From positions 1-42,846 of the forward strand of contig JAUYMO010000020.1 of assembly GCA_030699445.1 (NCBI GenBank): a stretch of DNA of 42,846 nt. The letters are read 5' to 3'. Source of the DNA: Candidatus Giovannonibacteria bacterium. GTDB taxonomy: Bacteria; Patescibacteriota; Minisyncoccia; UBA11713; 2-01-FULL-45-33. Of this stretch, positions 3-42,409 are shown in pieces. Below the pieces are notes generated by a model, which ran no database searches, was not told the DNA's origin, and saw only the letters and a program-made list of their open reading frames with translations. Numbering within the stretch: the stretch's first letter is position 1; each line of letters opens with the position of its first letter. The position numbers and the translations under genes were made by a program.

Positions 3-728
3 GCGTCGAGTCCGGCGGAGTTCCACGCGATTTTGGGGCAGATTAATCTTTTTTCCAAAATCCGCCTGGTAATTTTTAAAAATATTTTGGAATCTAATCC
101 CAAAATTTTTGAAATTCTTGAAGAAAGCGGCGATTTTTTAAAAAATTCAAAAGACATTTTCGTTTTTTGGGAAAAAGATTTAACGAAGCATAAAGAAGTT
201 TTAGCGTTTTTTAAGAAATTCGCGGAAAAAATGCAGGAAGTAAAAATACTTGGCCCGAAAGAACTGGATTTGTGGCTAGCGAAAAAAGCGCAAATTTTGG
301 GTTTAAAAATCAGCAAAGAGGAGCGCGATGTGATGATATCCGAAGCCGGCGACGGCGCCGAATGGGCGCTGGAAAATGAGCTGGAGAAAAGGGTGCTAGG
401 CGCGCCAGCCTCTTTGAAGTCCGACTTCAAATCCCCAAAGAAGTCGGACTTCTTCCCGGCTAGCGCGGCTTCTCCCTTTCCTTTCATTGAAAAAATGTTT
501 GGCCCGCGCGCGTTAATTGCTTTAAAAGAAATGTCTTTCACCGGCATTGAGCCGCAACAATTTATTTATCCTTTGCTTTGGAAAATAAAACAAAAGCGCA
601 TGGCGGACGCTTATTTCAAAGGCATCCAAGTAGAATCAGCCATGCGAAGAGACCCAAAAAATTCGTACGAAATTCTGGAGCGATTTATTTTTTCCCTGCC
701 CGACCGGCAGGCGGGGCTAAAAGTTTAG
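3..728 (+). CDS. holA: DNA polymerase III delta subunit-like protein, 5' partial (frame open to window start)
   Basis: ORF continues upstream of the annotated TTG at 33 (reads ASSPAEFHAILGQINLFSKIRLV); HolA-like order; contains in-frame palindromic insert APASLKSDFKSPKKSDFFPAS and ends SLPDRQAGLKV. Confidence 0.7.
   Translation, partial: ASSPAEFHAILGQINLFSKIRLVIFKNILESNPKIFEILEESGDFLKNSKDIFVFWEKDLTKHKEVLAFFKKFAEKMQEVKILGPKELDLWLAKKAQILGLKISKEERDVMISEAGDGAEWALENELEKRVLGAPASLKSDFKSPKKSDFFPASAASPFPFIEKMFGPRALIALKEMSFTGIEPQQFIYPLLWKIKQKRMADAYFKGIQVESAMRRDPKNSYEILERFIFSLPDRQAGLKV
403..465. repeat. Family A palindromic element, copy 1 (63 bp, in frame in holA)
   Basis: cgccagcc tctttgaagtccgacttc aaatccccaaa gaagtcggacttcttccc ggctagcg; inner and outer inverted arms; 63 bp = 21 codons. 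Confidence 0.88.
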
Positions 729-945
729 CCAGACGAGATTTCATCCGGGCGGCTTTGTTTTTTTTGATGAGGCCTCTTTTGGCGGATTTGTCTATGGCTT
801 TATAGGCGGCGGAAAGTGAAGCGGGCGACTTTTCAAGAGCCGCCTTTTTTACAGCCTCCTTTAATTTTTCTTTCCATGCCTGATTTCTCTCCCGCCTTTG
901 GCTGGATTGCCTTAAGGCCTTTTTAGCCGATGAAGTTATTGGCAT
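685..945 (-). CDS. rpsT: 30S ribosomal protein S20
   Basis: MPITSSAKKALRQSSQRRERNQAWKEKLKEAVKKA...; S20 size and basic composition. Confidence 0.9.
   Translation of the reverse strand: MPITSSAKKALRQSSQRRERNQAWKEKLKEAVKKAALEKSPASLSAAYKAIDKSAKRGLIKKNKAARMKSRLAKLLAPPAGRAGKK
695..715. repeat. Family C 21-bp palindromic element in the overlap of the holA and rpsT 3' ends
   Basis: cctgcccgaccggcaggcggg. Confidence 0.8.
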
Positions 946-959
946 AAAAAGAGTTTATA

Positions 960-2939
960 TTAGTTTAAACTTTTAATCAAGTCTCTCAATTCGGCGGCTT
1001 TTTCAAAGTCCAGCGCTTTGGCGGCTTCCAGCATCTCTTCTTCCAATTCCTGTTTTAGTTTTTCTTTGGACATTTCTTTAGACATTTTAGTAAGGTCAAA
1101 TTTTATTTTCTTTTCTTCTTCACCAAAGATATTTTCTCCGATTTCCCGCCTGATTGGCTCGGGCGTAATGCCGTTCTTTTTGTTATATTCATCCTGGATT
1201 TTTCTTCTGCGTTCAGTTTCTTCAATCGCGTTTTTCATGGATTCCGTAATTTTATCCGCGTACATAAGGACGGTTCCGTCGGTGTGCCTGGCCGCCCGGC
1301 CGATTGTCTGGATTAAAGTTTGTTTATTTCTCAAAAATCCTTCTTTGTCCGCGTCTAAAATTATAACAAGCGAAACTTCCGGGAGATCGATGCCCTCCCT
1401 TAAAAGATTTATTCCGACGATCACATCAAACGAACCTTTTCTTAAATCTCTCAAAATTTTATGTCGCTCTAAAGTTTTTATGTCGGAATGCAGATATTCG
1501 GCTTTGATTTTCTCTTCTTTTAAAAAATCCGCCAAATCCTCGGCCATGCGTTTTGTAAGCGTCGTCACGATAACGCGCTCATTTTTCGCGACCCGCTTTT
1601 CTATCTCAAAAATTACGTCTTTGATTTGTCCTTCAGTTTTTCTTATCTCAAGTTTCGGATCCAAGAGGCCGGTCGGGCGGATAATTTGTTCCACGACGGC
1701 GTTATTGCTTAATTTTATTTCATATTCAGCCGGCGTCGCCGAAACATAAACCGTCTGGCCGACTTTTTTTAAAAATTCGTCAAATTTTAAAGGCCGGTTG
1801 TCCATAGCCGAGGGGAGTCTGAAGCCGTAATCCACCAAAACCTGTTTTCTAGCGCGGTCGCCCATATACATCCCGCGGATTTGAGGGATGGACATATGCG
1901 ATTCATCAATAATCGTAATAAAATCTTTGGGCAAGTAATCCAAAAGCGTGGCGGGCGGCTCACCTGCTTTTCTAAACGCGAGCTGCCTGGAATAATTTTC
2001 TATTCCGTGCGTATAGCCGGTCTCGCGGAGCATTTTTAAATCAAAATTAACGCGCTGGGAAATTCGTTGGGCTTCCAAAAGCTTTCCCTCTTTTTTTAAT
2101 TCGGCAACTCGGCTTTTTAATTCCAATTCAATATTGGTAAGTGCCAGCTCAAGTTTGTCCTGCGGGGTCACGAAATGTTTCGCCGGGAAAATTTTTGCCT
2201 CGCCAGCCTCCTCGAAGTCCGACTTCAAATCCCCAAAGAAGTCGGACTTCTTCCCGGCTGGCGCGGTTTCCGATATCTTTTCAATTCGGTTTCCGTTCCA
2301 TTCAATTTTAACCACCGAATCTCCGGATGGAGCCGCGATTTCCACCGCTTCTCCGCGCACTTTAAAAATCCCCGCCCTCAAGTCGTAATCATTCCTTTCG
2401 TACTGCATCTCAACCAGTTTTTTTAAAAAAGCGCGCTGGGAAACCGGCATGCCCTCTTTTATTTCAAGCGCCGCTTTTTCGTATTCAACCGGATCGCCGA
2501 TGCCGTAAATACAGGAAACCGACGCGACAATCACAAAATCTCGGCGGGTGAGCGCCGTAGCGGTTGTGGCGTGGCGCATAGCGTCAATAAAATCGTTTAT
2601 TTTGGCATCCTTTTCTATATATGTGTCGGTTTGCGGAATATAGGCTTCCGGCTGGTAATAATCGTAATAAGAAACAAAATAATGCACGGCATTTTCCGGG
2701 AAAAAAGTTTTAAATTCCTGATAAAGCTGGGCGGCCAAAGTTTTATTGTGGGAAATCACCAAAGCCGGGCGGCCCAAATTGGCGATGGCGTTGGCCATAG
2801 TAAAAGTTTTTCCGGAGCCGGTGACACCTAAAAGCGTCTGATTTTTATTTCCTGCTTTCAGCAAACCGGTTAGCTCGGCAATCGCTTTTGGCTGATCTCC
2901 CTCCGGCTTATATGGCTGATGAAGTTTAAATATTGACAT
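960..2939 (-). CDS. uvrB: Excinuclease ABC subunit B
   Basis: LLGVTGSGKTFTMAN Walker A, YYDYYQPEAYIP, DLPEVSLV, C-terminal UVR domain; carries insert APAGKKSDFFGDLKSDFEEAGEA. Confidence 0.98.
   Translation of the reverse strand: MSIFKLHQPYKPEGDQPKAIAELTGLLKAGNKNQTLLGVTGSGKTFTMANAIANLGRPALVISHNKTLAAQLYQEFKTFFPENAVHYFVSYYDYYQPEAYIPQTDTYIEKDAKINDFIDAMRHATTATALTRRDFVIVASVSCIYGIGDPVEYEKAALEIKEGMPVSQRAFLKKLVEMQYERNDYDLRAGIFKVRGEAVEIAAPSGDSVVKIEWNGNRIEKISETAPAGKKSDFFGDLKSDFEEAGEAKIFPAKHFVTPQDKLELALTNIELELKSRVAELKKEGKLLEAQRISQRVNFDLKMLRETGYTHGIENYSRQLAFRKAGEPPATLLDYLPKDFITIIDESHMSIPQIRGMYMGDRARKQVLVDYGFRLPSAMDNRPLKFDEFLKKVGQTVYVSATPAEYEIKLSNNAVVEQIIRPTGLLDPKLEIRKTEGQIKDVIFEIEKRVAKNERVIVTTLTKRMAEDLADFLKEEKIKAEYLHSDIKTLERHKILRDLRKGSFDVIVGINLLREGIDLPEVSLVIILDADKEGFLRNKQTLIQTIGRAARHTDGTVLMYADKITESMKNAIEETERRRKIQDEYNKKNGITPEPIRREIGENIFGEEEKKIKFDLTKMSKEMSKEKLKQELEEEMLEAAKALDFEKAAELRDLIKSLN
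2201..2263. repeat. Family A palindromic element, copy 2 (63 bp, in frame in uvrB)
   Basis: cgccagcc...gaagtccgacttc...gaagtcggacttc...ggctggcg, nearly identical to 403-465, read on the opposite strand by uvrB. Confidence 0.9.
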
Positions 2940-2986: not shown

Positions 2987-3012
2987 AACTACTATGATAT
3001 ATCATAGTAGTT
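2987..3012. promoter_or_regulatory. 26-bp perfect palindrome, candidate operator of the TrpR-like gene
   Basis: aactactatgatatatcatagtagtt; ends 3 nt before the ATG at 3016. Confidence 0.7.
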
Positions 3013-3015
3013 AAT

Positions 3016-3432
3016 ATGCCGCATGTTTCCAGAAAAAAATTAAAGAAGAAAGTTTTTATAAAAATCGGCGAGCAACTGGCCGATACTATCGCCAAAGCCA
3101 ACTCGGCGCGGGAGTTAAGGTGGATTTTTAAGGAACTAATCACGCCGACTGAACGCGTTATGCTGGCGAAAAGGCTGGCGATAATATTGATGCTTGAGCG
3201 CGGTTATTCTTTCAATATTATTCAAAAAACTCTTAAAGTAACGCCGCAGACCATATTAAGGTTTTGGAAAATTACCAAACAGAGCTCGCATAAAGCAGTT
3301 ATTAAAGAAATTTCTTCCAGCAAAGCCAAAAAAGATTTTTGGCAGGAATTGGAAAAACTTATTTTATTTGGCATGCCGCCTCGTGGCCGGCAATGGCAGC
3401 TCATGCGCCGAGTTGCCGCGAAACACTTATAA
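3016..3432 (+). CDS. TrpR/YerC-like helix-turn-helix transcriptional regulator
   Basis: ELRWIFKELITPTERVMLAKRLAIILMLERGYSFNIIQKTLKVTPQTILRFWK resembles the Trp repressor fold family. Confidence 0.8.
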   Translation: MPHVSRKKLKKKVFIKIGEQLADTIAKANSARELRWIFKELITPTERVMLAKRLAIILMLERGYSFNIIQKTLKVTPQTILRFWKITKQSSHKAVIKEISSSKAKKDFWQELEKLILFGMPPRGRQWQLMRRVAAKHL

Positions 3433-3453: not shown

Positions 3454-3483
3454 CAAACCACTATGATATATCATAGTGGTTTG
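3454..3483. promoter_or_regulatory. 30-bp perfect palindrome
   Basis: caaaccactatgatatatcatagtggtttg. Confidence 0.75.
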
Positions 3484-4326: not shown

Positions 4327-4356
4327 CAAACCACTATGATATATCATAGTGGTTTG
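4327..4356. promoter_or_regulatory. 30-bp perfect palindrome, identical to 3454-3483
   Basis: caaaccactatgatatatcatagtggtttg. Confidence 0.75.
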
Positions 4357-4988: not shown

Positions 4989-6263
4989 ATGCTTGATGAA
5001 ACATTGGCTTCAGTAAAAAAATTTATTCCGAAGCCGATTTTTAATTTTTTCCAGCCATACTATCATTGGTGTTTGGCGTATCTGGCGGCGGCGATTTACG
5101 GATTTCCTTCGCGCAAGTTAAAAATCGTGGGAGTTACAGGCACCAACGGGAAATCAACCGTGGTGCATTTGTTAACTTCCATTTTGGAAGAGGCGGGCGA
5201 GAAAGCCGCGTCGATTTCTTCTCTGCGTTTCCGGATAAATAAAAAAGAAGAAACAAATACTTTAAAAATGACCATGCCGGGCAGGTTTAAGCTCCAAAAA
5301 TTTTTGCGGGAGGCGGTCAAAGCCGGATGCAAATACGGAATTATAGAAATAACATCAGAAGGAATCAAACAGCACCGGCACATAGGCATTGATTTTTACA
5401 TGGCGGTGCTTACCAATGTGACGCCGGAGCATATTGAATCGCACGGGACTTTTGAAAAATACCGCGCGGCAAAAGCGGAGCTTTTTAAAAAAGCGAAAAT
5501 ACATGTTTTAAACGGAGAGGACCCTTCTATTGATTATTTTTTAAAAATTCCTGCCTCGCCGGCAGGCAGGCCCGCCCAGAACCGCATTATTTATTCCAAA
5601 AAAGATTTTCCTCCGAATATACATCTTAAACTTTTGGGCGATTTTAATCTGGAAAATTCAGTCGCGGCGTATCACGCCGCGAAACTTCTGGGAATAGAGT
5701 TTGGCGCAATAAAAAGCGCGTTGGAAAAAACAGAAGGCGTGCCGGGGCGGCTGGAATTTATCCAAAAAGAACCATTTTCCGTGGTGGTGGATTACGCGCA
5801 CACTCCGGACGCGCTGGAGAAAATCTATGAGACTTTGCGTCCACCCGGGAAAACACTCGGTGTTTTTGGGGATTCAACACCGAGTGTTGAGGAGGGTAGA
5901 CGATTGATTTGTGTTTTAGGATCTGCGGGAGGCGGGCGCGACAAATGGAAACGGCCGGAGATGGGGAAAATCGCCGCGAAATTCTGCGATGAAATTATTT
6001 TAACCAATGAAGACCCGTATGACGAGAATCCGGAAGCAATTTTGGCGGAAGTAGAGCGCGGCATCGCGCAAAAAAACAAACTCCGGAAAATTTTGGATAG
6101 AAAAGAAGCGATAGGCGCGGCTTTGAAATCAGCGGAGCCGGGCGACACCGTAATCATCACCGGCAAAGGCGCTGAACCATGGCTCATGGGCCCCAACGGC
6201 TCCAAAATTCCTTGGGATGACAGGGAAGTGGCGAGAGAAGAGCTGGCCAGCGCGCAAAAATAA
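4989..6263 (+). CDS. murE: Mur ligase family protein (MurE-like)
   Basis: VGVTGTNGKSTVVHLL, ICVLGSAGGGRDKWKRPEMG, LTNEDPYDENP, GKGAEPWL. Confidence 0.9.
   Translation: MLDETLASVKKFIPKPIFNFFQPYYHWCLAYLAAAIYGFPSRKLKIVGVTGTNGKSTVVHLLTSILEEAGEKAASISSLRFRINKKEETNTLKMTMPGRFKLQKFLREAVKAGCKYGIIEITSEGIKQHRHIGIDFYMAVLTNVTPEHIESHGTFEKYRAAKAELFKKAKIHVLNGEDPSIDYFLKIPASPAGRPAQNRIIYSKKDFPPNIHLKLLGDFNLENSVAAYHAAKLLGIEFGAIKSALEKTEGVPGRLEFIQKEPFSVVVDYAHTPDALEKIYETLRPPGKTLGVFGDSTPSVEEGRRLICVLGSAGGGRDKWKRPEMGKIAAKFCDEIILTNEDPYDENPEAILAEVERGIAQKNKLRKILDRKEAIGAALKSAEPGDTVIITGKGAEPWLMGPNGSKIPWDDREVAREELASAQK
5550..5570. repeat. Family C 21-bp palindromic element, in frame in the Mur ligase
   Basis: cctgcctcgccggcaggcagg; exact reverse complement of 34017-34037. 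Confidence 0.85.
5847..5896. repeat. Family B palindromic element (~50 bp) in the Mur ligase
   Basis: gggaaaacactcggtgtttttggggattcaacaccgagtgttgaggaggg; reverse complement matches 41159-41208 at 48/50 by eye. Confidence 0.88.
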
Positions 6264-11901: not shown

Positions 11902-12678
11902 ATGCCAGAACTTCCGGAAGTGGAGATTACAACAAGAAAATTGAAAACGCTTATTTTAGGAAAGCGGATTTTAAATTTTAATAGGAAAATTTTAAATATT
12001 GAGCGGAAAGGAAAGGCGATTTTGATTTATCTTTCCGGCGGGAAAATTTTGGGATTTCACCAGCGGATGAGCGGGAAGCTTTTGGTTGTAGGGCGCGCCC
12101 GCCTGTCGGACGGGCAGGGCCGGGATGATAAACACATAAGAAAAAGATTTAAACTTTCCGATGGGCGAGATTTAGTTTTTCACGACGTGCGCAAATTTGG
12201 TGTGATTTGGTATGGCACAGCCAAAAAAGTTTTGAAAGACAACTATTTTAAAACTTTGGGCGAAGACGCGCTAACCGCAGGGCTTCAAAGTATTAAGAAT
12301 ATTTTATTAAATCGGAAAGGAAAAATCAAAGCATTCTTATTAAATCAAAAAAATCTTGCTGGAATCGGCAATATTATGGCGGACGAAATTTTATGGAAAG
12401 CGAAAATCCATCCCGAACGAGAGATTAAAACACTTCGATATATCGAAGTAAAAAGATTATGGAAGGCGCTCAAATTTATTTTAAAAAAGAGCATCAAACT
12501 CGGTGGTTCAACGATGCGAGATTGGCTTCATCCGGGCGGGGAGAAAGGCGGATATTTCAAAAAAAGGTATGTTTATGGCAGAGAAGGCCAAAAATGCTTT
12601 CGCTGTCGCGCTAAAATCTCGCGAAAAAAAATCGCCGGCCGCTCCAGCTATTTCTGCCCGCGATGCCAAGTGCTATAA
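11902..12678 (+). CDS. mutM: Formamidopyrimidine-DNA glycosylase
   Basis: MPELPEVEITTRKL start; FHDVRKFG; C-terminal zinc finger CFRCRAKISRKKIAGRSSYFCPRC. Confidence 0.95.
   Translation: MPELPEVEITTRKLKTLILGKRILNFNRKILNIERKGKAILIYLSGGKILGFHQRMSGKLLVVGRARLSDGQGRDDKHIRKRFKLSDGRDLVFHDVRKFGVIWYGTAKKVLKDNYFKTLGEDALTAGLQSIKNILLNRKGKIKAFLLNQKNLAGIGNIMADEILWKAKIHPEREIKTLRYIEVKRLWKALKFILKKSIKLGGSTMRDWLHPGGEKGGYFKKRYVYGREGQKCFRCRAKISRKKIAGRSSYFCPRCQVL
12098..12118. repeat. Family C 21-bp element in frame in mutM
   Basis: cccgcctgtcggacgggcagg (reverse orientation relative to the holA copy). Confidence 0.75.
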
Positions 12679-33655: not shown

Positions 33656-34425
33656 TTATTAAAAATAAAAAAGAGCTGGAAATTTTGCGGGAAGGCGGCA
33701 AGAGACTTGCCGCTGTTTTGGCTGAAGCCGCGTGCCACGCGATTGCCGGAATTTCCACAAAGGAACTTGACGCGCTCGCGGAAAATTTGATTTTAAAATC
33801 CGGAGGCGCGCCGTCTTTTAAAGGATATAAAGTGCGGGGCGTGCCGCGTCCCTACCCGGGTTCGCTTTGCGTTTCAATAAACGAAGAAGTGGTGCATGGG
33901 TTGCCGTCCGACCGCGAATTAAAAAACGGCGATATCGTCGGCTTGGATATCGGGATGTGGTTTGAAGGCCTATGCACTGATACGGCGATGACTGTTTTAA
34001 TTGGCGGAGGGAAAAACCTGCCTGCCGGCGAGGCAGGTAAATTAATTGACGCGACAAAAAAATCTTTGGAAATCGGCATCGCCGAAGTCCGTGCCGGAGC
34101 GCGTGTTGGCGATATTGGCTTTGCTATTCAAAAATATTTAGAAACAGAAGGATTCGGTGTGGTGCGCGAACTTGTTGGGCACGGCGTTGGGCGGGCAGTG
34201 CATGAAGACCCCGAAATTCCGAATTGGGGCCATCGCGGCGATGGTCCCGAGCTCCGCGAGGGAATGGCAATCGCTTTAGAACCAATGGCGACCGACGGCA
34301 GCCCGAAAGTAAAACTTTCCAAAGACGGCTGGACATGGCTTACGCGCGACTGCTCCCGCGCCGCGCATTTTGAGCATACTTTGGTGGTGAAAAAAAACGG
34401 GGCGGAAGTGTTGACAAGGATTTAA
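33652..34425 (+). CDS. map: Methionine aminopeptidase type I
   Basis: SINEEVVHGLPSDRELKNGDIVGLDIG; VRELVGHGVGRAVHEDPEIPNWG. Confidence 0.98.
   Translation: MIIKNKKELEILREGGKRLAAVLAEAACHAIAGISTKELDALAENLILKSGGAPSFKGYKVRGVPRPYPGSLCVSINEEVVHGLPSDRELKNGDIVGLDIGMWFEGLCTDTAMTVLIGGGKNLPAGEAGKLIDATKKSLEIGIAEVRAGARVGDIGFAIQKYLETEGFGVVRELVGHGVGRAVHEDPEIPNWGHRGDGPELREGMAIALEPMATDGSPKVKLSKDGWTWLTRDCSRAAHFEHTLVVKKNGAEVLTRI
34017..34037. repeat. Family C 21-bp element in frame in map
   Basis: cctgcctgccggcgaggcagg; exact reverse complement of 5550-5570. Confidence 0.85.
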
Positions 34426-40568: not shown

Positions 40569-41021
40569 ATGCCAAAAAAAGAAGCCGAAAAACTTATTGT
40601 CTATACTGACGGAGGGTCAAGGGGGAATCCGGGGCCGGCGGCGCTGGGAGTGGTGATTTTGGACGAAAAAGGGCGTGTGGTTAAAGAATACGGAGAAAAA
40701 CTTGGCGTAAAAACCAACAACGAGGCCGAATACGCCGCGGTGATATTCGCTTTAAAAAAAATCAAAGCGCTATTGGGAAAAGAAAAAACAAAAAAGATGG
40801 AAATTGCTTTTCGGATGGACAGCGAATTTGTGATGAAGCAGTTAAACGGAGAATATAAAATTGAAGAAGAAAGAATGTTTCCGCTTTTTGTTGCCGTGTG
40901 GAATTTAAAATTTGATTTTGGCAAAATAACTTTCAGCCATGTGCCCCGCGAAAAAAATCGCGAAGCCGACCGCTTGGTTAACGAAGCGCTGGATAAGGAA
41001 CAGGGCAGATTATGGCAGTAA
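40569..41021 (+). CDS. rnhA: Ribonuclease HI family protein
   Basis: IVYTDGGSRGNPGPAALGVV; TNNEAEYAAVIFALKKI; RMDSEFVMKQLNGEYK; VPREKNREADRLVNEALD. Confidence 0.95.
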   Translation: MPKKEAEKLIVYTDGGSRGNPGPAALGVVILDEKGRVVKEYGEKLGVKTNNEAEYAAVIFALKKIKALLGKEKTKKMEIAFRMDSEFVMKQLNGEYKIEEERMFPLFVAVWNLKFDFGKITFSHVPREKNREADRLVNEALDKEQGRLWQ

Positions 41022-42409
41022 AGCACGTTCCGTATTTGCTGGTCGCGTTTTTATGCGGAGTTATGCTCCGCTCATTTTTTAATATTCCGCAAAATTGGAT
41101 TTTGGGAGTGTTGGGATTAACGGTGGGGATCGTAATTATTTTATATTTTTTTGCCGCGCCCTCCTCAACACTCGGTGTTGAATCTCAAAAAACACCGAGT
41201 GTTTTCCCGTGCGCGGCTTTGTTTATTATTTTATTTTTCCTCCTTGGCATATTCCGCTTTTCTATTTTTGAAAATAAAATTACGGCTGACCGGCTTCACG
41301 ATTATTACGGCCAAACACTTACTTTACAAGGTAAAGTATTATCGAGCGTTCTTAAACCGAATAGTTCCCGCATCATTTTAGAAACCAATCTGGGCAGGAT
41401 TTTAATAGTGAAAAGAATTTATCCGGAATATAAATACGGAGATGTTTTGGAAATTTCCGGAAAAGTAGCCGAGCCGGAGCCTTACGCCGGCTTTGACACG
41501 GCTAAATTTCTTGCAAAACAGCAGATTTATTCCCAGATGATTTTTCCGGAAATTAAAAAAATCGGCTACTCTCCCAATAAATTTTTAAATTCGCTATTTT
41601 TTATAAAAAATAAATTTGAAGAAAGCTTAAAAAATATTTTACCGGAACCGGAGGCCTCACTGGCTTCGGGAATGCTTTTGGGGATTGAGGGCGTAATCCC
41701 GCAAAATATTTTGGATAATTTCAGGAAAGCAGGCGTTATCCATATTTTGGTGCTTTCTGGCTACAATATCACGGTCGTGGGAGCGTTTATTATGGCTTTT
41801 TTGGGATTTATTTTGCCGGATTTTCTGGCTTGGGCCGGCTCGCTTTTGGGGATTTTAGCTTTTACTTTGATGACCGGAGGCGAGCCAGCCGCGGTACGCG
41901 CGGCGATTATGGCCGTAATCGGACTCGTGGCCCTGCGCACGGGCAGAAGCTACCTCGCGATACTCGGCCTTTTGTGGGCGGCCTTTTTCATGGCTTTTTG
42001 GAATCCGATGTATGTCCGGTTTGACAGGGGTTTCCGGCTTTCTTTTTTGGCGACTTTGGGGCTGATACTTTTTTCTTCCTGGTTTATTAAAAAACTTTGG
42101 TTTCTGCCGAAATTTTTGGGCATCCGCGAAGCGGCCGCATCCACGCTTTCAGCCCAAATTTTCGTGACGCCGCTTCTGCTTTCCTGGGGGAATCTGGTTT
42201 CTTATCTAAGCCCCTTAGCCAATGTTGTGATAGTCGGTTTTGTGCCGACAATTATGTTTTTTAGTTTTGTAGCCGGAATTTTGGGATTTTTTTCCAGTTT
42301 TTTGGGGACAACGCTGGCTTTGGTCCCTTATTTTTTGATAAAATTTCAGATTTTGGCCGCCCAATTTTTCGCTAGCATTGATTGGGCCATGATTTATTTT
42401 AATTTTTGA
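41012..42409 (+). CDS. comEC: ComEC/Rec2-like competence domain membrane protein
   Basis: ASLASGMLLGIEGVIPQNILDNFRKAGVIHILVLSGYNITVV; PAAVRAAIMAVI. Confidence 0.92.
   Translation: MAVKHVPYLLVAFLCGVMLRSFFNIPQNWILGVLGLTVGIVIILYFFAAPSSTLGVESQKTPSVFPCAALFIILFFLLGIFRFSIFENKITADRLHDYYGQTLTLQGKVLSSVLKPNSSRIILETNLGRILIVKRIYPEYKYGDVLEISGKVAEPEPYAGFDTAKFLAKQQIYSQMIFPEIKKIGYSPNKFLNSLFFIKNKFEESLKNILPEPEASLASGMLLGIEGVIPQNILDNFRKAGVIHILVLSGYNITVVGAFIMAFLGFILPDFLAWAGSLLGILAFTLMTGGEPAAVRAAIMAVIGLVALRTGRSYLAILGLLWAAFFMAFWNPMYVRFDRGFRLSFLATLGLILFSSWFIKKLWFLPKFLGIREAAASTLSAQIFVTPLLLSWGNLVSYLSPLANVVIVGFVPTIMFFSFVAGILGFFSSFLGTTLALVPYFLIKFQILAAQFFASIDWAMIYFNF
41159..41208. repeat. Family B palindromic element (~50 bp) in comEC
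   Basis: ccctcctcaacactcggtgttgaatctcaaaaaacaccgagtgttttccc. Confidence 0.88.

Follow-up and report, generated by a model that had tools for sequence, protein, structure and literature searches.

A hairpin element spread through dozens of essential genes of Ca. Giovannonibacteria, nearly always in the same reading frame

Palindromes that sit in frame inside protein genes, namely the Rickettsia palindromic elements (RPE), and intragenic REPs are already known. To our knowledge, the enzyme that mobilises RPE has not been identified, and how in-frame palindromic elements move is still open. RPE are palindromic and dispersed, lie in frame in conserved protein genes and are tolerated there as extra peptide (PMC2229807); they have been described as losing repeat identity over time (PMC6649704). 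A REPIN is an inverted doublet of REPs in which compensatory changes are common and whose palindrome type matches a particular transposase (PMC3116915). REPINs are extragenic, REPs carry a 5' GTAG-type tag, and TnpA-REP recognises tag and hairpin in single-stranded DNA (PMC8266576). Most of the REPs and REPINs known so far lie between genes (PMC3116915, PMC3733652). The second source also describes intragenic dimers of GTAG/CGTC REPs, which lie in ORFs, encode 20-30 amino acids and often occur in repair genes, including uvrA and uvrB; the CGTC families have no transposase association, and their intragenic Rickettsia conorii members correspond to RPE-4 and RPE-6 (PMC3733652).

The element described here was found in a 42,846-nt stretch of DNA (the window) from Ca. 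Giovannonibacteria, ultra-small bacteria of groundwater. Like RPE, it is a palindromic repeat, dispersed and in frame inside conserved genes, with the reservation that its translation was not observed. It differs from RPE in size (63-73 nt against 105-146 bp, PMC2229807) and in location (RPE are also intergenic and found in RNA genes, whereas 106 of our 108 scored copies lie in long ORFs), and it shows one phase, compensated stems and arms with RAYT cores. The resemblance to RPE proposed in the first-pass annotation thus stands as an analogy, while size and location speak against membership. With REPINs the element shares two inverted palindromes that form one hairpin with a spacer, and a palindrome core in common with RAYT loci; unlike REPINs, it is intragenic and has a copy-specific outer stem, and unlike REPs, it has no GTAG-type tetranucleotide 5' of the palindrome, where GGGAA and GGGGATT are found. 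The GTAG/CGTC repeats are similar in being REP-type dimers inside ORFs with uvrA and uvrB among their hosts, but their intragenic copies are a minority of mostly intergenic families, and, as far as we could find, PMC3733652 does not mention a fixed phase, nesting or arm swapping. Coding palindromes of Nematomorpha mitochondria are likewise stable inverted repeats inside translated genes; both their arms, however, encode conserved host residues and they are not dispersed copies (PMC6649704). Our literature search found no paper on such elements in Patescibacteria. What is new is a variant that is confined to genes, fixed in phase and nested, and whose arms match RAYT cores.

Copies, hosts and hairpin architecture

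The window holds four copies. Two had already been noticed as near-identical elements at 403-465 and 2201-2263, and indeed they are real (94% identity over 70 nt); two more, with a different arm, had been missed (5834-5906 and 41149-41221). The copies and their hosts are as follows.

3..728, plus strand: host ORF, HolA-like; start outside the window; no Pfam match
398..470, plus strand: first copy of the element, with the KSDF arm; lies in frame in the HolA-like ORF; outer stem 401-410/458-467, internal loop 411-415/453-457, arms 416-428/440-452, loop 429-439
960..2939, minus strand: host gene uvrB; UvrB identity confirmed
2196..2268, plus strand: second copy, also with the KSDF arm; lies in frame in uvrB, which reads it on the minus strand; arms 2214-2226/2238-2250; site empty in the relatives G002, G006 and G007
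4989..6263, plus strand: host gene, Mur ligase (murE-like)
5834..5906, minus strand: third copy, with the AACACTCGGTGTT arm; lies in frame in the murE-like gene and encodes GKTLGVFGDSTPSVEE; arms 5852-5864/5876-5888; murE-like site empty in G002
41012..42409, plus strand: host gene, ComEC-type competence protein
41149..41221, plus strand: fourth copy, also with the AACACTCGGTGTT arm; lies in frame in the comEC-like gene and encodes SSTLGVESQKTPSVFP; arms 41167-41179/41191-41203; G001 and G002 without an element there

The first-pass annotation took the unit to be 63 bp, or 21 codons. The symmetric unit is larger (73 nt, 398-470 and 2196-2268), and the net insertion in UvrB against the empty relatives is 66 nt (22 codons). 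The in-frame position in both host genes was correctly seen, as was the identity of UvrB; the holA label lacks such support, as a Pfam search of the first ORF (3-728, plus strand) gave no match and the label rests on reading only. An Rfam search of the window returned two tRNAs only and no family for the element.

Seen from the outside, the 73-nt unit starts with an outer stem of roughly 10 bp; a 5/5 internal loop separates this from an inner stem of 13 bp, which ends in a loop of 11 nt. Across copies, the hairpin is about 60-75 nt long. In the internal loop TCCTC stands opposite TTCCC (GGGAA/GAGGA on the other strand), and these tags are conserved and unpaired. The 11-nt loop is a conserved spacer, which reads AAATCCCCAAA in the KSDF-arm copies of the window, and the inner arms are themselves palindromes of 5 bases, a 3-base loop and 5 complementary bases. 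The folds of copies 1 and 2 are much better than those of shuffled sequences (z about -6 to -7), and when the copies are folded as RNA or as DNA, both stems form, the inner one with its 13 bp, and the internal loops stay open.

Reading of the whole source genome (657,832 bp, the window being its contig 52) yielded 17 full copies, whose scores stand clearly apart from the background, and one further copy with a single arm (own contig position C58:394). In the 17 copies both sides have changed in 20 of the 23 pairs (15.1 in shuffles), and standard pairs fill 92.8% of pair cells versus 68.3% in shuffles, none of 500 shuffles being as good. The arms change as sets (GAAGT, AACAC, GAAAC, AACAT, AAAAC, AAGGT). 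The outer stem, on the other hand, is specific to each copy: 8.63 of 10 positions pair within a copy versus 5.65 of 10 between copies, and 101 copies carry 71 distinct 8-mers. Given the near-identical copies and the compensatory structure, a chance repeat can be rejected. That the outer stem is a pre-existing hairpin of the target gene was also rejected, no clear inverted repeat having been seen in the empty sites. In single cases (SOD, comEC) there is a hint that the outer stem may have one original and one copied side, but the divergence is too high to settle this. A covariance model finds the element in all ten family genomes, each of which has 2-56 model hits (in some cases a copy is hit on both strands). 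Of 377 further genomes of the class, 28 have hits, most strongly in three other families. Hence the search for further copies in this genome and its relatives, which had been suggested as a check, came out in favour of a dispersed element.

Reading frame, empty sites and turnover

The 108 scored copies come from this genome, its relatives and a few members of the class, and the open frames that contain 106 of them have at least 120 codons; for comparison, the coding fraction has an upper bound of 0.915. The copy on own contig C39, counted as in-frame, is probably in non-coding flank; with it, three copies are probably intergenic. One phase is used by 101 of the 106 ORF copies, in either orientation, where 56 would be expected if the open phases were equally used; this sample is overstated because copies at shared sites are not independent. 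The earlier claim that both directions lack stops is true of the phases used but not of all six. Peptides in this phase would be, for instance, PSS-KSDF-KSPK-KSDF-FPG or GK-TLGV-FGDS-TPSV-EE, and the hosts include LeuS, a second class I tRNA synthetase, UvrA, UvrB, UvrC, IF-2, Fe-SOD, MurE, ComEC and PrgI. At each site compared, the net insertion is a multiple of 3.

The byp elements of yeast mitochondria are skipped by the ribosome or removed from the RNA. A stable hairpin inside coding sequence could suggest that the present element is similarly left untranslated, but skipping would not require that the frame is kept, that stops are avoided and that the net insertion is a multiple of 3, and we give this idea hardly any credence.

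The UvrB site, between IEKIS and KIFPAKHF, illustrates the turnover. Among the three genomes in which it is empty, G002 belongs to the same genus. The site is occupied by the KSDF element in G000 and G001; in G004 the KSDF element found there has the other orientation, G008 and G009 have AACAC-arm elements in opposite orientations, and elements are also present in G063 and G083, two genomes of another family. Relatives that retained the residues without the DNA repeat would have refuted an insertion; those without the repeat at this site are also without the residues. The insert lies in the UvrA-interaction domain and, when mapped as had been proposed, falls in a predicted low-confidence, presumably disordered loop between two strands (residues 228-240). 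The murE, comEC and SOD sites are empty or element-free in same-genus genomes, and at own C18:330 G002 keeps only the outer stem and one end, the footprint of an internal deletion.

We distinguished 57 sites (the clustering merges a few paralogous host proteins), 24 of which are common to at least two genomes, and at most of these the arms or the orientation differ. Nesting in an older copy is seen for at least 14 copies (0.37 expected from shuffled flanks), the second tag pair being found exactly 10 or 13 bp further out, on a half-arm of the older copy. Of the two marks of a MITE, terminal inverted repeats and a target-site duplication, inverted ends are present, and no duplication could be defined against the diverged empty sites. 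Insertion borders and duplications could not be set because UvrB of family relatives is 73-86% identical and MAG assemblies break at repeats.

Could the element have been domesticated, with an mRNA hairpin or a peptide loop under selection for a role in regulation, in translational pausing or in protein interaction? The strong phase bias, the avoidance of stops and the pairing preserved across copies are in line with this. However, presence in the same gene varies within a genus, the host genes are unrelated, the peptides at one site differ by arm type and orientation, and the UvrB insert is predicted to be disordered. In our opinion such a function is very unlikely; of the "selfish or domesticated" element that the first-pass annotation inferred, only the selfish half finds support.

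The same loops also receive other sequences. In uvrB of G003 (L095) the UvrB loop holds an unrelated long foreign stretch, and in murE of G001 (L221) the MurE loop holds an unrelated CACGCTT tandem repeat. In G009 (L128) an element lies in an Mfd-like protein, apparently at the position homologous to the UvrB site.

RAYT-like transposases and the origin of the element

Y1 transposases are present in all ten family genomes; most are flanked by palindromes of their own, and several of the ORFs contain a copy of their own palindrome. At 12 of 56 Y1/RAYT-like loci the palindrome core is identical to an element arm, with at least two spaced copies each, while the controls gave 3 of 256 own-genome windows and 0 in 2000 shuffled-arm sets. 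A stricter test, which missed one-mismatch palindromes, gave only 2 of 25 loci (P 0.015). The four RAYT-like proteins whose loci have the GAAGT core fall into a single clade, and the palindromes of these loci have the 13-nt core exactly and differ outside it. The matching transposases match NCBIfam REP_Tyr_transpos with scores below the curated cut-off. The match between arms and RAYT-palindrome cores thus points to an element of REP/REPIN type. Nevertheless, mobilisation by RAYT is inferred and not demonstrated, because the GGGAA/GAGGA tags are absent from the RAYT-flanking palindromes, where the 11-nt spacer was not found either. The RAYT loci of the source genome itself were rejected as the direct source: their palindromes have other cores, and the matching ones were found only in relatives.

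We believe, with a probability of roughly 0.6, that this is a selfish element resembling RPE, with the build of a REPIN, which RAYT-like enzymes probably mobilise and which is tolerated as protein loops. What was observed is that it is dispersed, keeps a compensated structure, codes in frame and in a fixed phase, is missing from sites in relatives, nests, and has arm cores identical to those at RAYT loci. One copy consists of two inverted REP-like hairpins (13-nt arms, 5-bp/3-nt mini-hairpins) around the conserved 11-nt spacer, a doublet flanked by the conserved unpaired tags and the copy-specific outer stem. We infer that insertion takes place in single-stranded form and is most likely the work of RAYT-like Y1 (HUH) transposases, which would recognise the arm core, their binding, cleavage and catalysis being inferences as well; different arm types match different RAYT-like loci. 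Insertions may survive in tolerant surface loops because one phase is open in both orientations and gives a short hydrophilic peptide, so that selection is the inferred cause of the phase bias. Younger insertions nest in older copies, and footprints remain after deletions. It has to be said against this explanation that the outer stem is not accounted for by known RAYT action and that no transposition event was observed.

A coding-adapted REPIN mobilised by RAYT, with arms swapped between transposase specificities, constant tags and spacer, one phase readable in both orientations and copies that nest, is an idea that we can put forward only tentatively, at somewhat less than even odds. If true, it gives in-frame palindromic elements, and with them the RPE problem, a candidate mobilising enzyme. 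Since the cores found in the arms belong to transposase loci that can be identified, the movement of in-frame palindromes is directly testable.

Alternatively, insertions were seeded anciently and there is no active transposase, arms, orientation and outer stems having changed through repair templated on the hairpin, through inversions inside the outer stem and through conversion among copies. The many sites common to several genera (the 24 of 57 above) agree with this, as does the outer stem GCATTGYGC at own C18:330, common to G000, G002, G004 and G008, so that this copy is inherited; further, at MurE a similar outer stem encloses the element in either orientation, and template switching predicts compensatory changes. 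Yet copying between places is still needed for the empty sites within one genus, for near-identical copies in unrelated genes 1.8 kb apart and for arm cores that match RAYT loci. Moreover, template switching should repair the 5/5 internal loop, which remains unpaired in the great majority of copies. It therefore seems to us an unlikely scenario, if one that deserves to be kept in mind.

A selfish element that is tolerated as protein loops and probably moved by RAYT would mean selfish DNA living in genes and not in the gaps that separate them, in a genome where non-coding sequence is scarce. The elements explain the recurrent extra loops in UvrA, UvrB, UvrC, IF-2, tRNA synthetases and MurE of this lineage, loops which could mislead alignments and structure work.

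Several other repeats deserve mention. RAYT-like genes with clade-specific flanking palindromes, of which one copy often lies within the transposase ORF, are found at own C45:2911-3641, C9:4265-4991, C53:3205-3899 and C17:727-1233, and at L211, L210 and L256. GAAGT-core REP-like palindromes (typically ..GGAAGTCCGACTTCC..) without the TCCTC/TTCCC tags occur at own C1:122, C3:10845, C10:122, C20:19 and 239, C21:8571, C22:8 and C42:23687, some at contig ends, singly or in close pairs, and by appearance only they look intergenic. In the window, three exact copies of ACTATGATATATCATAGT (2991-3008, 3460-3477 and 4333-4350) surround a small ORF (3016-3432) that looks like a TrpR-type regulator; they are likely its operator sites. 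Finally, a shorter in-frame palindrome, CTGCC..GGCAG, with peptides of PAG/RQAG type, has four matches in the window (696-710, 5551-5565, 12103-12117 and 34022-34036; 0.01 expected), and at own C34:2893-2986 a larger element has one such palindrome in its loop.
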